DNA from: Hyphomicrobium sp.
Lineage (GTDB): Bacteria > Pseudomonadota > Alphaproteobacteria > Rhizobiales > Hyphomicrobiaceae
NCBI GenBank assembly: GCA_013141015.1
Contig: JABFRT010000042.1
Coordinates: 1-59,045 of the forward strand
Direction of reading: 5' to 3'
Length of the DNA: 59,045 nt
How positions within the stretch are numbered: position 1 is the stretch's first letter; each line of letters begins with the position of its first letter. Of this stretch, positions 2,569 to 49,677 are shown one piece after another. The notes beneath the pieces are model-generated. The model saw only the letters and a program-made list of their open reading frames with translations, was not told the origin of the DNA and ran no database searches. The position numbers were made by a program, and so were the translations under genes.

Positions 2569-3777
2569 ATGGTTACCGCGACAGAAAGCCAAATATTTTC
2601 TTTAGATGCCGCGGGCGTTAACAAGCCGTCGCTTGCCGGATTGACGCGCGACGGCCTCAAAAACGCGCTGGCTGCGGCGGGCGTGCCGGACAAACAGCTG
2701 CGCATGCGGGTTGGCCAGCTGTGGGGCTGGCTATACGCGCACGGCGTGACCAGCTTCGACCAGATGACCGACGTGTCGAAAGACCTGCGCGCAAAGTTGG
2801 CGGACATGTATTCGCTCGACCGTCCGGAAATCGTCTCCGAACAGATCTCGGTTGATGGCACGCGCAAATGGCTGCTGCGGCTGCCCAAGCGCGGCCACGA
2901 GATGACGGCGCCGGAAATCGAAACGGTTTATATCCCTGAGAGTGACCGCGGCACGCTGTGCATCTCCAGCCAAGTCGGCTGCACACTCAACTGTTCGTTC
3001 TGCCATACCGGCACCCAGCGCTTGGTGCGCAACCTGCTGCCGGAAGAAATCGCCGGCCAGATCATGCTGGCACGCGACCGCATCGGCGATTGGCCGGGCG
3101 CTGAGCGGCCGCTGGATGGCCGGTTGCTACCGGTCGCGGAACGCAAGATTACCAACGTCGTGCTGATGGGCATGGGCGAACCGCTCTATAATTTCGACAA
3201 CGTGCGGGACGCGATGGAGGTTGCCTCCGATGATGCCGGACTGTCGCTGTCGAAGCGGCGCATAACGCTGTCGACCTCGGGCGTAGTACCGGAGATTGCG
3301 CGGTGGGGCGAGGAGAGCGGCACGATGCTGGCGATTTCGCTGCACGCCACCAACGACGCGTTGCGCGATGAGCTTGTGCCGATCAACAAGAAGTACCCGA
3401 TTGCCGAGTTGATGGAGGCGTGCCGTAATTATCCGGGACTATCGAACGCCAAACGCATTACCTTTGAATACGTGATGCTGAAGGGCGTCAACGATAGCCT
3501 TGCTGAAGCCCGCGCGCTGGTCCGCCTGCTGGCGGGCATTCCGGCGAAGATCAACCTGATCCCGTTCAACCCGTGGCCGAACACCAAGTATGAGTGCTCG
3601 GACTGGCAGACGATTGAGCGGTTCGCCGATGTCGTCAACCGGGCCGGATACGCAAGCCCGGTGCGCACGCCTCGCGGCCGCGATATTCTGGCGGCCTGCG
3701 GCCAGCTGAAGTCGGAAAGCCTTAAAGTGCGGGCCAGCGCCCGGCCCGAGGCCGATGCTGCAGACCCCGCGGCTTAA
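2569..3777 (+). CDS. rlmN: Dual-specificity 23S rRNA A2503 / tRNA A37 C2-methyltransferase RlmN
   Basis: Radical-SAM enzyme that methylates C2 of A2503 in 23S rRNA, and of A37 in some tRNAs. The CxxxCxxC cluster motif is CTLNCSFC, with Cys at about 138, 142 and 145. The glycine-rich SAM-binding stretch is [12 protein letters not shown], and the family's C-terminal catalytic Cys is in AACGQ at about 377. At 402 aa it is of normal length for alphaproteobacteria. The ATG at 2569 precedes conserved N-terminal sequence including [15 protein letters not shown]. It stands alone between a hairpin-rich leader and a 184-base gap. Confidence 0.96.
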
Positions 3778-33996: not shown

Positions 33997-34306
33997 CCGC
34001 TGGGCTGGAAGCCCGCCGCATTGACTTTAGCAGCCCTTTCCAGCATACGAACTCCATCCAACCGGCCCTGAACCTCAGAGCCGCCGCCTTACACATGGTC
34101 ATTCCAACCTGAATGGCCGGGAGGTAAGGGGGTCAACATCCGGCGGCGCGTTGCGCTCCCGGGTGCATATTTGTTTGGGCTCACGGGCTGTTCCGCGCGC
34201 TGCGGGCCAATGAGCGGTAACACTGCAATCGTGGCGCGCGCGGGCCCTCCGCCGGGCGGCGCATAAGCGCCGGGCCGCGGTCGCGGCCTTGGAGAAGACC
34301 GGACTT
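33997..34306. other. Gene-free interval upstream of ffh
   Basis: Strongly G+C-rich, with several small palindromes, the clearest being GGCGC-ATAA-GCGCC at about 34257-34270 and CCGCG-GT-CGCGG just after it. I looked for the SRP RNA (ffs) consensus near its partner gene ffh and did not find the GGAAGG...GCAGC core. No credible ORF is seen. Confidence 0.4.
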
Positions 34307-43912: not shown

Positions 43913-44431
43913 ATGGCAATCGATGCCCTCGTCAAACCGTTTTTGCTTTTGCCCCTGTTCCAGGGATTGAAGCCTTTGCAGTTGACGGAAATTGTACGCC
44001 GCGCGGACCGCATCATTTACCGGCCGGGCGACGTCATCATCGAGGAAGATCAGCCCGGTGAAGCGGCGATTATCATCGTCTCAGGCGAAGCTGTGCGATT
44101 GCAGAATGACGAACCTGGCAATGCGGCGCAGCCCATTGCTGAAGGATCGATGATTGGCGAATTGGCGATGCTGGTTGAAACCGTGCACGCGTCAACCATC
44201 GTAGCGCGCACCACTGTTAAAGCCTTGCGCCTCACGCGCAGCGAAATGCATGAAGCGATGGCAGATGACCCAAGACTTGCCGATCATCTAACTCAGAAAA
44301 TTACTGCCCGCCTTCACCGCCTCGCCCAGGAGTTGCGCTCGGTTGATCAGGCTTTGGCCGATATCGCCGGGATTGAAGCGATTGTGCAGGCGCAAGTGCC
44401 GCCGGCTTTCACAGCGTCACCGCTGCACTGA
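43913..44431 (+). CDS. Cyclic-nucleotide-binding-domain protein
   Basis: A 172-aa protein with one cNMP-binding (CRP-like) beta-barrel. The blocks FLLLPLFQGLKPLQLTEIV, IIYRPGDVIIEEDQPGEAAI and GSMIGELAML (phosphate-binding cassette) are typical. There is no helix-turn-helix after the effector domain; the C-terminus is helical (RLHRLAQELRSVDQALADI). So it is a sensor without DNA binding, probably acting by protein contact. GGAGAG lies about 6 nt before the ATG. The candidate small RNA lies convergent just after it. Confidence 0.86.
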   Translation: MAIDALVKPFLLLPLFQGLKPLQLTEIVRRADRIIYRPGDVIIEEDQPGEAAIIIVSGEAVRLQNDEPGNAAQPIAEGSMIGELAMLVETVHASTIVARTTVKALRLTRSEMHEAMADDPRLADHLTQKITARLHRLAQELRSVDQALADIAGIEAIVQAQVPPAFTASPLH

Positions 44432-44461
44432 ACCGCATATAAGCTTGATCTATACGGAAGC

Positions 44462-44610
44462 CAGAAAAGGGTGCGCCCAGTTCCGGGGGGAGGAACTGGG
44501 CGCTATTTGCGCTTGTCGCGCTCGGTTCCGGGAGGGAAGCCGGAACCAGAGATGACGCCTTCGGTCAGACGGGGGGCACTTACCGAATACAGGGTGGCGT
44601 CACCTGCATG
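44462..44610 (-). ncRNA. Candidate small RNA with three C-rich-loop hairpins
   Basis: Read on the minus strand, three hairpins follow each other. The first, TTCGGT/ACCGAA (44560-44587), has a 16-base loop with CCCCCC. The second, GGTTCCGG/CCGGAACC (44524-44547), has loop CTTCCCTC. The third, GCGCCCAGTTCC/GGAACTGGGCGC (44473-44503), is a perfect 12-bp stem with loop TCCCCCC and then ACCCTTTTCT. C-rich CUCCC loops that pair with Shine-Dalgarno sequences are the mark of alpha-r14/cuckoo-type RNAs of alphaproteobacteria. The last stem could be its terminator. The 5' end and promoter are not placed. The alternative is simply a terminator of the cNMP gene. Confidence 0.45.
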
Positions 44611-44680
44611 TGAGGTAGTTAAGCGCAGAACCGGCAAATTCAATAGGGGGTGTGTGGCCAGATCACGAAAACGTGATCGG

Positions 44681-44699
44681 TTATCCAACCTTATCCACA
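44681..44699. promoter_or_regulatory. Paired DnaA-box-like 9-mers
   Basis: TTATCCAAC at 44681-44689 is followed one base later by TTATCCACA at 44691-44699, the latter an exact match to the DnaA-box consensus. A perfect GATCACG/CGTGATC hairpin (44661-44678) lies beside them. The two 9-mers in a row are unlikely to be coding. They may titrate or bind DnaA, or occur by chance. Confidence 0.4.
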
Positions 44700-44753
44700 A
44701 CCAGCCGCTTGCGTGCTACCCGGCAGCAACACACTGATTTGCTTCGACAAAGC

Positions 44754-45551
44754 CTATTGTGGCGTTCCCGGCTTTGCTCCAAGCTGTTGAATTTTAAAGA
44801 GATTAGCATCAATTTCGTCGGTCTTGACGACGTCGGAAACCTCAAGCCGGGTATCAAGACCCTGCGCGTCGCTTGTTACCCATTCTTTCAATTCCAGGGC
44901 CGGCTTGGTCGCCAGGAACAATTTGATCTTGCCGGGTGTATCAGGGCTTTTGTCCTGTAACCCCAACACGATAAGGTCGTCTGCTTGTTGCACTTCAATG
45001 ATCCGGGCGTCGCGCAGAAGATCGACATCTTTGCGCAGCAATAGCCGGAAAGGCGTCTGGTCCAGCGCCACGCGGTCCTCATTGTTCAAGTCGAGATCCT
45101 GGATCGCCAAGTATTCGCCGTCCGATACGATGATTTGCCTGGAGGGAAGCGCGTAGTCGAAGCGGAATTTGCCTGGGCGTTTGACGAAAAACTTGCCCTT
45201 GAGCTTTTTCTTGTCAGCGCCGGTCTGGACAAAATTGCCCTTCATTCCTTTGAGATCAGCAAAATAGCCGCTGACCGTCTTGACCAGTTCGGTCTGCTTT
45301 TCATCGAGTGAGATGCCAGTGGTGCCGTTGGCCGGGGCGACTTCCTGCACCCAACCGCCGTCGCCAGCCGATGGCTTGGCGGCCGTTGCAGCGCCTGGAG
45401 CCTGTGGAGTGGTGGCCGGTGCGGCCTGCGCTGGCGGTGCAGCAGGCGCTGCGGGCTTAGCTGCCTCCCCGGCATAAGCGGCGCTGGCCAAGCCAAGCAC
45501 TGCAAGCGACGTGATCGTCCGGCCAAGCGCTGTCATATTCCGTCCCATCAT
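44754..45551 (-). CDS. lolA: Outer-membrane lipoprotein carrier protein LolA
   Basis: Periplasmic chaperone that carries lipoproteins from the LolCDE complex to the outer membrane. About 265 aa: a signal peptide (cleaved near AYA), a long Ala/Pro-rich linker, then the LolA fold with SGYFADLKGMKGNFVQTGAD, GKFFVKRPGKFRFDYA and the QIIVSDGEYLAIQDLDLN blocks. The linker makes it longer than E. coli LolA. Possible starts are ATG 45551, 45548 and 45536; GGGGG is right before the first pair. It lies next to ftsK on the same strand, a common alphaproteobacterial order. Confidence 0.9.
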   Translation of the reverse strand: MMGRNMTALGRTITSLAVLGLASAAYAGEAAKPAAPAAPPAQAAPATTPQAPGAATAAKPSAGDGGWVQEVAPANGTTGISLDEKQTELVKTVSGYFADLKGMKGNFVQTGADKKKLKGKFFVKRPGKFRFDYALPSRQIIVSDGEYLAIQDLDLNNEDRVALDQTPFRLLLRKDVDLLRDARIIEVQQADDLIVLGLQDKSPDTPGKIKLFLATKPALELKEWVTSDAQGLDTRLEVSDVVKTDEIDANLFKIQQLGAKPGTPQ

Positions 45552-45722
45552 TCCCCCAAAGTGCCCGCATCCCCAACGGCGCCGGCCATGACCGGCGAAC
45601 CGCTGTATCATGTCTGCAAAAATTGCGACGACACCGGGGCGATAATCTCGAGTTGAGGGCATAGTTGACACCGCCGCCATGCGCAAGTTGCCGCCCCGGA
45701 GCTGGACCGGTTCTGGCGGCGA

Positions 45723-48440
45723 TCAGGCCGCATCGGCGTTGCCGGGGCCTGCAACGAGAACGTCGCGCTTGCCGACCGGGTTGGCTGCAGACACCAGCCC
45801 CTCGCGCTCCATCCGCTCGATGATATCGGCGGCGCGGTTATAGCCAATCGACAGGCGGCGCTGAATGTAGCTGGTCGATGCCTTGCGGTCGCGCAGCACA
45901 ATCGCCACTGCCCGATCATAGAGATCGCCCTCATTGGGTGTGCGTTCGCCGCTGGCGATATCCTGCGTTCCAGCCGTCTCACCGATCCCGTCGACATAGT
46001 TCGGCGGGCCTTGACGGCGGAGTGCGTTGGCAATCGCCTCGACTTCTTCATCTGACACAAACGCGCCGTGCACCCGAACAATCTGACCGGTGCCGCTGGA
46101 AAACAGCATGTCGCCCTGGCCAAGCAGTTGTTCGGCACCTTGTTCATTGAGGATCGTGCGGCTGTCGATCTTTGACGTGACCTTGAACGAAATGCGGGTC
46201 GGGAAATTGGCCTTGATCGTGCCAGTGATCACATCGACGGATGGGCGCTGCGTTGCCATGATCAAGTGGATGCCAGCGGCGCGCGCCATTTGCGCCAAGC
46301 GCTGCACGGCCACTTCGACGTCTTTGCCAGCGACACTCATCAGATCGGCGAACTCGTCGACCACGATCACGATGTGCGGCAGCGGCTCAAGATCCATCTT
46401 CTGTTTTTCAAACAGCGGCTGACCGGCCTTATCAAATCCGGTCTGTACCGTGCGCGCCAGCATCTCGCCGCGCTTCTTTGCGTTGCGCACGCGGTTGTTG
46501 AACATATCGATGTTGCGAACCGACAGCGAGGCCATGCGCTTGTAGCGCTCTTCCATTTCACCGACCGCCCAGTTGAGCGCCGCAACGGCCTTATGCGGAT
46601 CGGTGACGACGGGCGCCAAAAGGTGGGGAATACCGTTGTAAACCGACAATTCGAGCATCTTCGGATCGATCATCAGCAGGCGGCAGTCTTCCGGCGCGTG
46701 ACGATAGAGCAGCGACAGAACCATCGCATTGACGCCGACCGACTTGCCAGATCCCGTGGTGCCAGCCACCAGCAAATGCGGCATGCGCGCGAGATCGGCG
46801 ACGACAGGTTCGCCACCAATCGATTTGCCAAGCGCTAAAGGCAGCGCGAATTCGCTTGTCTTGTAAGCATCCGCTTCAAGAATCTCGCGCAGCAAGACCG
46901 GCTCGCGACGCATATTCGGCAACTCAAGGCCAATGGCATTGCGGCCCGGCACGACAGCGGCGCGCACGCTAACCACGCTCATCGAGCGGGCGATATCGTC
47001 AGCCAAACCAATCACGCGCGAAGACTTGGTGCCGCGCGACGGCTCCAATTCGTAAAGCGTGATAACAGGGCCGGGCTTGATATCCTTGACTTCGCCTTTG
47101 ACGCCGAAATCTGCGAGCACATCTTCCAGCAGCCGCGCATTGCCGCGCATTACCGTCTGTGTGAATTCGGGACCCGGCTTGGAGGACGCCGCCCGCTTCA
47201 GTAAATTGAGCGATGGACGCTTCCATTCCGGTTCTGATTTGCGGAACGACAGGCCACCGAGAAGGGCCGCTGCTTTGCCGCTGGCTGGCGCTGCTGCTTT
47301 GGGCATTGCAGCGGTTGCGGCTGGTGCATCTGACGCGCCCGGCGCAAATCGCGCGGCAATGGCCCGGCTGGCGTTGTCGGTGTTGACGTCGAACGCAAAC
47401 GCGCGCGTTGCGGGCGGCGCATCGCGTGGCGTTGGCGATCCAAAATCAAAGGCGGCAACAGGTGGGGGCGTGCTGTGATCAACGTCGTAGCCGGCATCGC
47501 GGCTGAGCGCTGAAAAGCCACCGGTTTCATCAAAGCCTGCCGGCGCCGGCATTCCATGGTTGGCCACCACATGGGCTGCAAATGCAGCTGAAATTCCGGT
47601 TGCCGGGGCGTAACTGTGCAAATGCGGCACGCGTTCGTCGCGCGTCCACTGGTGCGGCGGCGGAAATGGTTCCGGAACAGCCAGCTCCGCGGCCGCGCCG
47701 TAAAGGCTCTCGGTCACCGGCTTGGCTTTGCTCTTGGCCGCGAACGGCCACCAAGAACCAGCCTCACGCGCCGCAGATTTGACCTGCAAAGGGTTGGGTG
47801 CCGGCATGGTCTGCGCATCGTCTGAGACCCGCGTTGCCGCCGCCTGCAGCCCGCTTCGCACAGCCCCTTCCAAATCAAAACCAATGCTCTTGGCAAAGGT
47901 GGTGACGGCAGCGGCGACCAACACAAGCGCCGACGCCAAACCCGCGCGGTCCTCGTTGATCAATCCGAACACACGCGACGCAAGCTTGAACAACGCATCA
48001 CCCAGTACACCGCCTAAGCCATGATGCAACGGCCAAACGCTAGGCGCCGGCATTGCCGACAGCGCACCCGCGACAGCGAGAATGGCGAGGGGATAAAAGC
48101 CAACCTTGGTCCGCGCTGCATCAACGCGGCGGGCGCGCATCAGCTGCAAAGTCCAAACAACCGGTGCGATAAGCGCAATGACAGCGGAAAAACCAAGCGT
48201 TTGCAGCAATAGATCAGCAACGACGGCGCCGATGCGGCCCATCCAATTGCGCGGTTCGACCGTTGTTGCGTGGGTCAAACTCGGATCGGAAAACGACCAA
48301 GTGGCGAGGCTCAGCCAGACCACGCCAACGAGCGCCAGGAGGACGAGACCTCCAAAGCGTGCGAGCCAGCCCAACAGCCGGTCCTCCATCGACTGTGGCA
48401 ACAGCCTTTGAGGATCGATGCCTCGTGTATCGAGCGACAT
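45723..48440 (-). CDS. ftsK: DNA translocase FtsK
   Basis: A 905-aa division protein. The N-terminal part has four transmembrane helices (about 20-200), followed by an Ala/Pro-rich linker and the motor. Walker A GTTGSGKS is at about residues 560-567, and the [15 protein letters not shown] block follows. The C-terminal gamma winged-helix domain ([21 protein letters not shown]) recognises KOPS sequences to steer the chromosome. It is 22 bases downstream of the DapC-like aminotransferase gene and upstream of lolA. Start ATG 48440 begins [20 protein letters not shown]; an upstream frame extends to 48539 but is not conserved. Confidence 0.95.
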
Positions 48441-48462
48441 CTTCGCGAACGAACTCTCATAC

Positions 48463-49677
48463 TCAACGCAGCACGCTAACCGTGCGTTCGAGCGCTTCCC
48501 GGATTGCCGCCGCATCCTGAACCAAGGCAACGCGCACATAGTTGGCGCCAGGATTGGTTCCGTGACCGTCGTTTTGAGCCAGGAAGGCCCCTGGTATGAC
48601 CTTGACGCCCATACGTTTCCATAAGGTTACCGTTGCGTCACTGCCGCCGCCAAATTGGCTCATATCGAGCCAAAGGCAGAACCCGCCGTCAGGCCGTTTG
48701 TATCCATAGCGGCCGCCCAGAACCGCATCGGCAATGGCGAATTTTTCGCGATACTGCGCACGCGCCGCCTCAACGTGGGCTTCGTCTCCCCAGGCGGCAG
48801 CAGACGCGTGTTGCACAGGCCCCGGTACGGTCGGCGCGCACATGTTGCGGATTTCGGCGAAGGCCTCCAGGAACGCCGCGTCGCCCGCGCAAAACCCAGA
48901 ACGCAATCCAGGCAGGTTCGAACGCTTGGACAGCGAATTGAAGACCACCAGATTTGCGAAACGTTCGGGCGTTCCGCTTGCCACCTCAAGGCCACCCACG
49001 GGAGCAGCGCCTGTATAAATCTCCGAATAGCATTCATCCAGAAACAGCATGAAATTATGGGCGCGCGCCAACGTCAACGCTTTGAGGATATAGCCGCGCG
49101 ATGCAACCGTGCCCTGCGGGTTGGCTGGCGAATTGATGAACAGCGCGCAGGTGCGGGCAAGCAAGTCCTTGTCGCGCGCCAAGGTGTCGAGGTCCGGCAG
49201 GAAGCCGGTTTCTGCGGTCGCGTTGAGATAGACCGCCTCCGCGCCGACGCCGAGAGCGCCCGCGACATAGGCTGAGTAATACGGATTGCACATCAGGATC
49301 GCCGGCCGGCCTGTTACCGCCTTGCGGCCCACCGCCGGCAGGCACGCAAAGAACAAGCCTTCGCGCGATCCGTTAAGAGCGAGGACTTCGCGGGCTGGAT
49401 CAACCCCGCCAGGGATCACATAGCGCCGCGACAACCACTGAGAGATTGCACCGCGCAACTCATCTGACCCGCGGATCGGCGGGTATTTGCCGTAGAGGCT
49501 GGCTGCCTCATCGAGCTTAGCCGCGATAAAATCCGGCATCGCCTCGCGCGGCTCGCCAATCGTCAATTCAATCGGTTTGGCATGCCCCGGCTCTATGCCG
49601 CTCAACAAGCGGCGCAGCTGCGTGAACGGCGAAAGGATCGCGCCAGAGGTAAGGGACGAGAGGCTCGATGACTGCAT
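48463..49677 (-). CDS. DapC-like succinyldiaminopimelate aminotransferase
   Basis: A 404-aa fold-type I PLP aminotransferase. The Schiff-base Lys is about 251 in [10 protein letters not shown], with the [10 protein letters not shown] Asp at about 214 and [13 protein letters not shown] near the start. The N-terminal [17 protein letters not shown] pattern is close to known DapC sequences, which convert N-succinyl-2-amino-6-ketopimelate to N-succinyl-LL-DAP. The substrate is assigned by similarity by eye only. It lies immediately upstream of ftsK (22 bases), also common in Rhizobiales. ATG 49677 is the probable start. Confidence 0.82.

Follow-up and report, generated by a model that had tools for sequence, protein, structure and literature searches.

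What is encoded between lolA and a cyclic-nucleotide-binding-domain (cNMP) gene of Hyphomicrobium sp., where several hairpins with C-rich loops follow one another? The locus lies on contig JABFRT010000042.1, in a window (the whole stretch of DNA analysed) of 59,045 nucleotides. A first-pass annotation of the window had proposed a minus-strand small RNA, either a member or an analogue of the alpha-r14 (ar14) RNAs. We found a structured element with near-fixed loops, a usual genomic place and conserved upstream sequences (features are listed in Table 1). With a probability of about 0.68, the best explanation of the whole is an independent, conserved gene for a trans-acting small RNA with C-rich loops.

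Table 1. Features of the element and its surroundings, in window coordinates.
Feature	Position	Strand	Basis
Response regulator, OmpR/PhoB type, 228 aa	42987..43673	+	PF00072 and PF00486
cNMP-binding-domain gene, convergent neighbour	43913..44431	+	PF00027
Small RNA gene	44464..44610	-	extent of R1 covariance-model match, 147.7 bits; transcript ends predicted
Tail ACCCUUUUCU, 3' of terminator stem	44463..44472	-	direct reading
Hairpin 4, terminator-like, loop UCCCCCC at 44485-44491	44473..44503	-	terminator scan, covariation
Terminator-like stem	GCGCCCAGTTCC 44473-44484 with GGAACTGGGCGC 44492-44503		direct reading
Small hairpin 3 (GCGC...GCGC)	44509..44521	-	window-sequence fold; absent from consensus fold
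Hairpin 2	44523..44548	-	covariation, fold
Hairpin 2 stem	GGTTCCGG 44524-44531 with CCGGAACC 44540-44547		direct reading
Loop 2 CUUCCCUC	44532..44539	-	unpaired probability about 1; UCCCUCC invariant in 42 A1 rows
Hairpin 1, outer and inner stem	44550..44605	-	minimum-energy fold
Hairpin 1 stem	TTCGGT 44560-44565 with ACCGAA 44582-44587		direct reading
Loop 1 motif CCCCCCGUCU	44567..44576	-	invariant in 42 A1 rows; mean unpaired probability 0.62 (ten letters)
Promoter-like block TTGAAT-N15-TTAACT	44617..44643	-	TTGA enrichment; conserved, no consensus sigma-70 site
Palindrome TCACGTTTTCGTGA, candidate CenR-type box	44663..44676	-	centre 59 bases before model start
lolA, more constant neighbour	44754..45536	-	PF03548; probable ATG
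GGGGG in lolA start region, candidate target	45553..45557	-	read from sequence
ftsK-like gene upstream of lolA	45723..48539	-	ORF

Hairpins and fold of the element

Direct reading of the sequence confirmed the three perfect stems at the places where the first-pass annotation had put them, their C-rich loops on the minus strand (GTGCCCCCCGTCT, CTTCCCTC and TCCCCCC) and ACCCTTTTCT directly after the last stem. The stems are beyond chance: 201 nt of the minus strand fold at -79.2 kcal/mol, compared with -56.0 ± 4.0 for 200 dinucleotide shuffles (z -5.8, none as low). For the plus strand the z value was -3.8, again with no shuffle as low. The terminator-like stem was found on the minus strand only, and the T-run lies likewise on the minus-strand side, the terminal U-run being short. 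Four hairpins are present in the fold of the window sequence; the longer outer stem of hairpin 1 and the small hairpin 3 had gone unseen in the annotation. Loops 2 and 3 (the latter being that of the terminator-like hairpin) are nearly all unpaired and the loop 1 motif is partly so. Three hairpins with unpaired C-rich loops, as in ar14-type RNAs, are thus present in both the window-sequence fold and the consensus fold, loop 1 being partly unpaired.

No conserved reading frame was seen, in agreement with the earlier view that no coding frame explains the stems. A coding reading was rejected because the two overlapping ORFs (65 and 88 aa) gave no Pfam match up to E 0.001 and gaps of 1-2 bases between aligned relatives break the frame.

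Conservation and covariation

Two alignments were used: A1, in which 41 of the 42 distinct rows are family sequences and the last, L030, belongs to a different family of the same order, and A2, with 55 order-level matches, 11 of them from the family, which were aligned by covariance model and are hence biased towards it. In all 42 rows of A1, loop 1 keeps CCCCCCGTCT and loop 2 keeps TCCCTCC without change. Two-sided changes occurred in 20 of the 34 consensus pairs of A1 (shuffle mean 11.5, sd 1.6), and 98.5% of cells pair, compared with 35-42% when the partners are slid. These changes affect all seven consensus pairs in helices 1 and 2 of hairpin 1, 6 of 8 pairs in hairpin 2 and 7 of 12 in hairpin 4; the inner stem of hairpin 1 has none, so that support is weak there. 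The corresponding count in A2 was 32 of 34 pairs against 22.9 in shuffles, in an alignment fitted to the model. Compensatory stem changes and loop conservation, proposed in the annotation as a check, were therefore both found: the stems covary and the loops stay nearly fixed. What stands of the proposed minus-strand small RNA with anti-Shine-Dalgarno loops is a conserved structured element with compensatory changes, and from this we infer its transcription as a small RNA.

The pattern along the locus was followed in 21 Hyphomicrobium loci by per-column majority, which was 0.90-0.96 in 25-base blocks from 44596 to 44472 and 0.86 in the block over the RNA start. The same measure was 0.75-0.90 for lolA coding sequence, 0.73-0.80 for the gap between lolA and the RNA, and at most 0.59 for the blocks from the RNA to the cNMP gene. 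Within the genus, the RNA-matching DNA is 80-89% identical and the adjoining cNMP protein 51-78% (20 genomes with a close copy).

Occurrence in Alphaproteobacteria

A DNA search detected the element in 33 of 60 related genomes, including 20 of the 21 other genomes of the genus Hyphomicrobium. Covariance model R1 matched 98 of 103 family genomes and 114 of 297 genomes of the order. A broader model, R2, was built from 51 order-level representatives; its source alignment (A3) omits L134, L137, L150 and L152, judged on score or truncation, which are still within A2 and its counts. R2 matched 124 of the 297 order genomes and 41 of 385 class genomes (39 of these 41 outside the order), with 173 and 344 genomes, respectively, giving no match; the calibration behind its E-values was short, and chance may account for the weakest class matches. 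The class loci discussed below are the 29 best-scoring of the 39 matches outside the order, and two of them (L296 and L300) have a shortened match without the loop 1 motif.

In the source genome, R1 gave a single match up to E 10 and no paralogue. Two of the 103 family genomes (G001 and G064) had a second match, L150 and L152, the latter truncated by a contig end, and second R2 matches occurred in four genomes of the order sample (G132, G208, G265 and G266). L150 is a second locus of H. facile, whose weaker element (2001-2117, 35.3 bits) carries UCCCUCA and CUCCUCCCCCCGG and is either a paralogue or a chance C-rich terminator. A strict DNA pattern identified 83 stretches in named genomes, and the 80 listed were labelled Hyphomicrobium, Filomicrobium, Rhodomicrobium, Methyloceanibacter, Methyloligella, Chthonobacter, or more broadly. 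With this pattern the loops were found in Hyphomicrobium facile DSM 1565, Filomicrobium insigne, Methyloceanibacter methanicus and Rhodomicrobium sp. R_RK_3.

Genomic context

The annotation had placed the element next to the cNMP gene, which holds here and in 16 of the 55 order loci of A2, but lolA is the more constant neighbour: it lies upstream on the same strand in 41 of the 55 order loci and in 17 of the 29 class loci. Where lolA is present in the order, the distance from the end of the LolA match to the RNA start is 84-206 bases in 36 of 41 loci. Farther upstream, a stretch homologous to the gene that we take from its sequence to be ftsK-like is present on the same strand in 39 of the 55 A2 loci. 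Downstream, the cNMP gene was found in at least 16 A2 loci and in none of the 29 class loci, and the response regulator in at least 20 A2 loci; the cNMP and response-regulator counts are lower bounds since the loci span at most 2 kb on each side. lolA is absent upstream from 14 order loci (two of which have less than 400 bases of sequence) and from 12 class loci. Several loci without lolA have another long ORF upstream, which in several of the 12 class loci is aminotransferase-like, and exonuclease-III-like ORFs lie 3' of the RNA in some class loci (both names were given by eye).

Other RNAs were also seen in these sequences. The window contains an ffh sRNA (RF01793) at 34122-34173 on the plus strand (51.6 bits, cut-off 35). 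In the distant relative L129, DUF3800-VII and ffh sRNA matches above the Rfam cut-off (2323-2406 and 3382-3433) lie within 1.3 kb downstream of the element.

Putative upstream control region

A palindrome, TCAC-N6-GTGA, is perfect in 30 of the 42 A1 upstream regions (0.07 expected from letter shuffles). With at least 7 of 8 letters it occurs in 37 of 42 A1 regions (about 1.7 in shuffles) and 28 of 54 A2 regions (2.05 in shuffles), these rows being related and not independent; other spacers from 2 to 11 gave 0-8 regions in A1 and 1-5 in A2. Of the 28 A2 rows with the box, 18 have its centre 52-61 bases ahead of the model start. A second perfect copy is located at the RNA start (44600-44613), and the two are the sole perfect pair in the window; the second was taken as chance, as it is not kept in relatives among those listed. 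With up to one mismatch, the pattern is not enriched in the window (19 versus 18.1 expected). In the 3.94-Mb genome there is one copy of the exact box TCACNTTTTCGTGA and five more at one mismatch, and the reversed control pattern occurs once. No box of at least 7 of 8 letters was found in one tolQ-like locus, where the promoter may lie outside the stretch scanned. The single exact box in the genome and the tolQ-like locus without a near match argue against a wide regulon with the exact box.

The palindrome resembles the S. meliloti repeat AgTCAC--C--cGTgAct, which genetic evidence links to CenK-CenR (PMC9561847). The CenR motif of R. sphaeroides is TGA-N8-TGA (PMC9275681), from which the TCA-N8-TGA of the window box differs by one letter. 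With 228 codons, the response regulator in the window equals S. meliloti cenR in length (PMC9561847); together with its domains, this suggests that it may be CenR.

TTGA was found in 38 of 42, 44 of 54 and 23 of 29 upstream regions (A1, A2 and class, respectively), compared with 9.9, 11.3 and 6.9 after shuffling. This conservation supports a promoter of the RNA's own, despite a scan of the upstream region of the window element finding no consensus sigma-70 promoter. Another pattern, CTTG-N17-20-CCATNT, was found in nine of the 54 order regions and one of the 29 class regions but in none of the 42 A1 regions (0.0 in shuffles); it was seen upstream of L117, L141, L128, L109 and others, and is similar to heat-shock-sigma promoters. 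The sigma factor that serves the RNA may differ from family to family.

Relationship to known RNA families

At the element, neither the window nor the relatives scanned gave a match above cut-off to any Rfam 15 family. The best match at the locus up to E 10 was 6C RNA (RF01066), with 21.4 bits (E 1.1), below its cut-off of 47. 6C RNA is known from actinobacteria; the likeness comes from the terminator hairpin with its CCCCCC loop, and the match covers this one hairpin only. Other overlaps below cut-off were anti-hemB, partly in L291 (23.6 bits versus 49.5), and, in L109, a Brucella CI408 match (34.3 bits versus 398) whose end reaches the element. All three were taken as chance or flank. The CI408 match in L109 covers 1260-1543 on the minus strand, downstream of the RNA, where CI27 also matches with 29 bits (cut-off 59.8); perhaps a shared repeat is involved.

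The general plan recalls several characterized RNAs. sX13 of Xanthomonas has three stems with apical C-rich loops of 4C, 4C and 5C (PMC3771888), but it is gammaproteobacterial, and the scans made gave no Rfam match to sX13 at the element; an sX11 match among the scanned loci lay at another place. The alpha-r8 RNAs (MmgR, SisA-D) share with the element a C-rich anti-Shine-Dalgarno seed in an alphaproteobacterial RNA. Their seed UUUCCUCCCU, reported to be single-stranded and to lie downstream of a weak hairpin (PMC12559287), occurs in none of the 42, 55 and 29 aligned rows (A1, A2 and class). EcpR1 (SmelC291) is likewise conserved in Rhizobiales, with members reported in Hyphomicrobiaceae as well. 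However, it has two stem-loop domains and a position in S. meliloti between divK-pleD and rpmG (PMC4414408), whereas our element lies between lolA and the cNMP-domain gene and the locus gave no EcpR1 Rfam match.

The closest comparison is with alpha-r14 (NfeR1, SmelA075/SmelA099; RF02344), with which we take CcsR and cuckoo RNAs to be grouped; CcsR-like RNAs have a DUF1127 gene adjacent (CIN1 locus), and the neighbours scanned here are lolA, the cNMP-domain gene and the response regulator. Like the element, these are alphaproteobacterial multi-hairpin RNAs with C-rich anti-Shine-Dalgarno loops. They are characterized by an identical CCUCCUCCC motif in each hairpin loop, whereas the loops here are not CCUCCUCCC and are unlike each other; the motif is absent from the window element and occurs anywhere in the row in just 1 of 42, 0 of 55 and 0 of 29 aligned sequences (A1, A2 and class). 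The element also differs in being present in one copy in the source genome, usually beside lolA. The Rfam ar14 model (cut-off 58.8 bits) gave no match up to E 10 at 44400-44760, contrary to what membership would predict, and none up to E 0.1 in the source genome. Above the cut-off, ar14 was detected in 54 of 297 order genomes, 36 of which had no R2 match; in all 18 with both, the ar14 and R2 matches lie at different places (compared by hand), although R2 matched weakly in G270 and G369 (36-37 bits). The order sample includes 13 family genomes, of which two (G011 and G030) had ar14 matches below the cut-off; their element loci (L002 and L024) gave none up to E 5.

Some cross-matching was observed. 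Among 18 element loci scanned, one (L129) matched ar14, with 32.1 bits (E 0.025-0.039), which is below the cut-off. In the opposite direction, 30 ar14 loci were scanned with both models. R1 gave matches of 7-31 bits in 25 of them up to E 10, almost always at the ar14 element, and missed five; R2 matched 11 up to E 0.01. Because there is no ar14 match at the locus, the loops are not CCUCCUCCC and ar14 lies elsewhere in 18 of 18 genomes, we do not consider the element an ar14 member. Since the models cross-match weakly, it is better described as an analogue, perhaps a distant sister, so that one half of the original proposal is retained and the other abandoned. The element probably works like ar14 and may be its distant sister.

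Proposed mode of action and candidate target

Two studies illustrate how such RNAs act. Repression by sX13 needs C-rich loops and G-rich mRNA motifs, and Hfq is dispensable (PMC3771888). NfeR1 has three anti-Shine-Dalgarno loops that are redundant on ntrB and two transporter mRNAs, independently of Hfq (PMC10746234). Loop letters that stay fixed while the stems drift are what such pre-formed seeds predict.

The search for targets covered lolA and four other genes of the window. The lolA start was readable in 37 of the 42 A1 rows, the other five having no start in the sequence or no lolA match. A run of at least five G was present in 28 of these 37 rows and exactly four G in the other nine. Among control starts, such a run was found in none of 27 for the regulator and 1 of 44 for the cNMP gene; for lolA, every ATG up to 240 bases from the match was considered and the one with the longest G-run taken, for the controls an ATG, GTG or TTG within 20 codons, so the counts were not made alike, and the rows are related. 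In the window as a whole, 1.3% of 40-base pieces contain a run of at least five G. Pairing energies between the loops and the lolA region were also compared with those of random pieces of the window: loops 3 and 1 ranked in the top 2-5%, loop 2 at 21%. This energy test is weak; counting G-runs at the starts of the two other genes gives the better control. These features suggest that lolA mRNA is a likely target in Hyphomicrobiaceae. Outside the family, most lolA starts have no run of five G, so that lolA may serve as a local target without accounting for the wide conservation.

Alternative explanations

Three other explanations need to be weighed. The element could be a divergent member of alpha-r14 (NfeR1/CcsR/cuckoo) that has lost the exact CCUCCUCCC motifs. 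The L129 match, the R1 and R2 matches to ar14 loci and the common plan of several hairpins with C-rich loops all point in this direction, and NfeR1 is 123 nt long and Hfq-independent (PMC10746234). Yet the locus itself lacks an ar14 match, a single aligned row holds CCUCCUCCC, above-cut-off ar14 genes sit at other loci in all 18 genomes with both, L129 stands alone among the loci scanned and R1 misses five of the 30 ar14 loci, which together make such descent unlikely. We consider it still less probable that the RNA is derived from the 3' UTR of lolA, or is a complex terminator of the lolA transcript, without function in trans. Its start shortly behind lolA on the same strand and the terminator-like hairpin at its end would fit, but the loop letters are conserved beyond the need of a terminator, conserved promoter-like and palindromic blocks separate lolA from the RNA, and the order and class loci without an upstream lolA carry the element nonetheless.

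The remaining explanation, a terminator of the cNMP gene accompanied by chance hairpins, was also the one to which the annotation would have been reduced had stems and loops not been conserved. The gene ends at 44431 and the first plus-strand hairpin begins at 44473, as expected of a terminator. However, the matches extend across the order and class, hairpins 1, 2 and 4 covary, the T-run is on the minus-strand side and the cNMP gene is a downstream neighbour in a minority of order loci and in no class locus. As both stems and loops are kept in genomes without a cNMP neighbour, we regard this explanation as refuted; it is extremely improbable.

Discussion

The independent small RNA gene thus remains our preferred explanation. 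Positions 44610-44464 of the minus strand would encode a trans-acting RNA of about 145 nt found in many alphaproteobacteria. Its stems would present three C-rich loops (CCCCCCGUCU, UUCCCUCC and CCUCCCCCC, or variants) as pre-formed seeds, the third being the loop of the terminator hairpin. Through these loops the RNA would bind G-rich ribosome-binding regions in several mRNAs and so prevent their translation, probably independently of Hfq, and the mRNA of the neighbouring lolA would be a likely target in Hyphomicrobiaceae. The TCAC-N6-GTGA box upstream would probably set transcription, perhaps through binding of CenR, an envelope regulator. Transcription, target repression, Hfq independence, CenR control and the choice of lolA as a target are predictions.

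It is well supported that the element represents a family of C-rich-loop small RNAs, with a mechanism of known type, a new loop set and a constant place, and the family is apparently undescribed: among the open-access titles and abstract openings listed, none dealt with a small RNA adjacent to lolA in this class. A broader, rather doubtful idea is that the RNA is of ancient origin in alphaproteobacteria and serves envelope control, as a single gene retained next to ftsK-lolA in several orders and driven by CenR, and that its C-rich loops tune LolA lipoprotein traffic and other envelope mRNAs. It would then be an RNA arm of CenKR, and possibly an ancestor or sister of ar14. The logic would be comparable to that of the envelope RNAs MicA and RybB under sigma-E.

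Besides ar14, the finding gives alphaproteobacteria another, separate line of C-rich RNAs with several loops. Its loop sequences and place are kept across much of the order and, more loosely, in part of the class, and the element offers a ready test for an RNA arm of the envelope regulator CenR.
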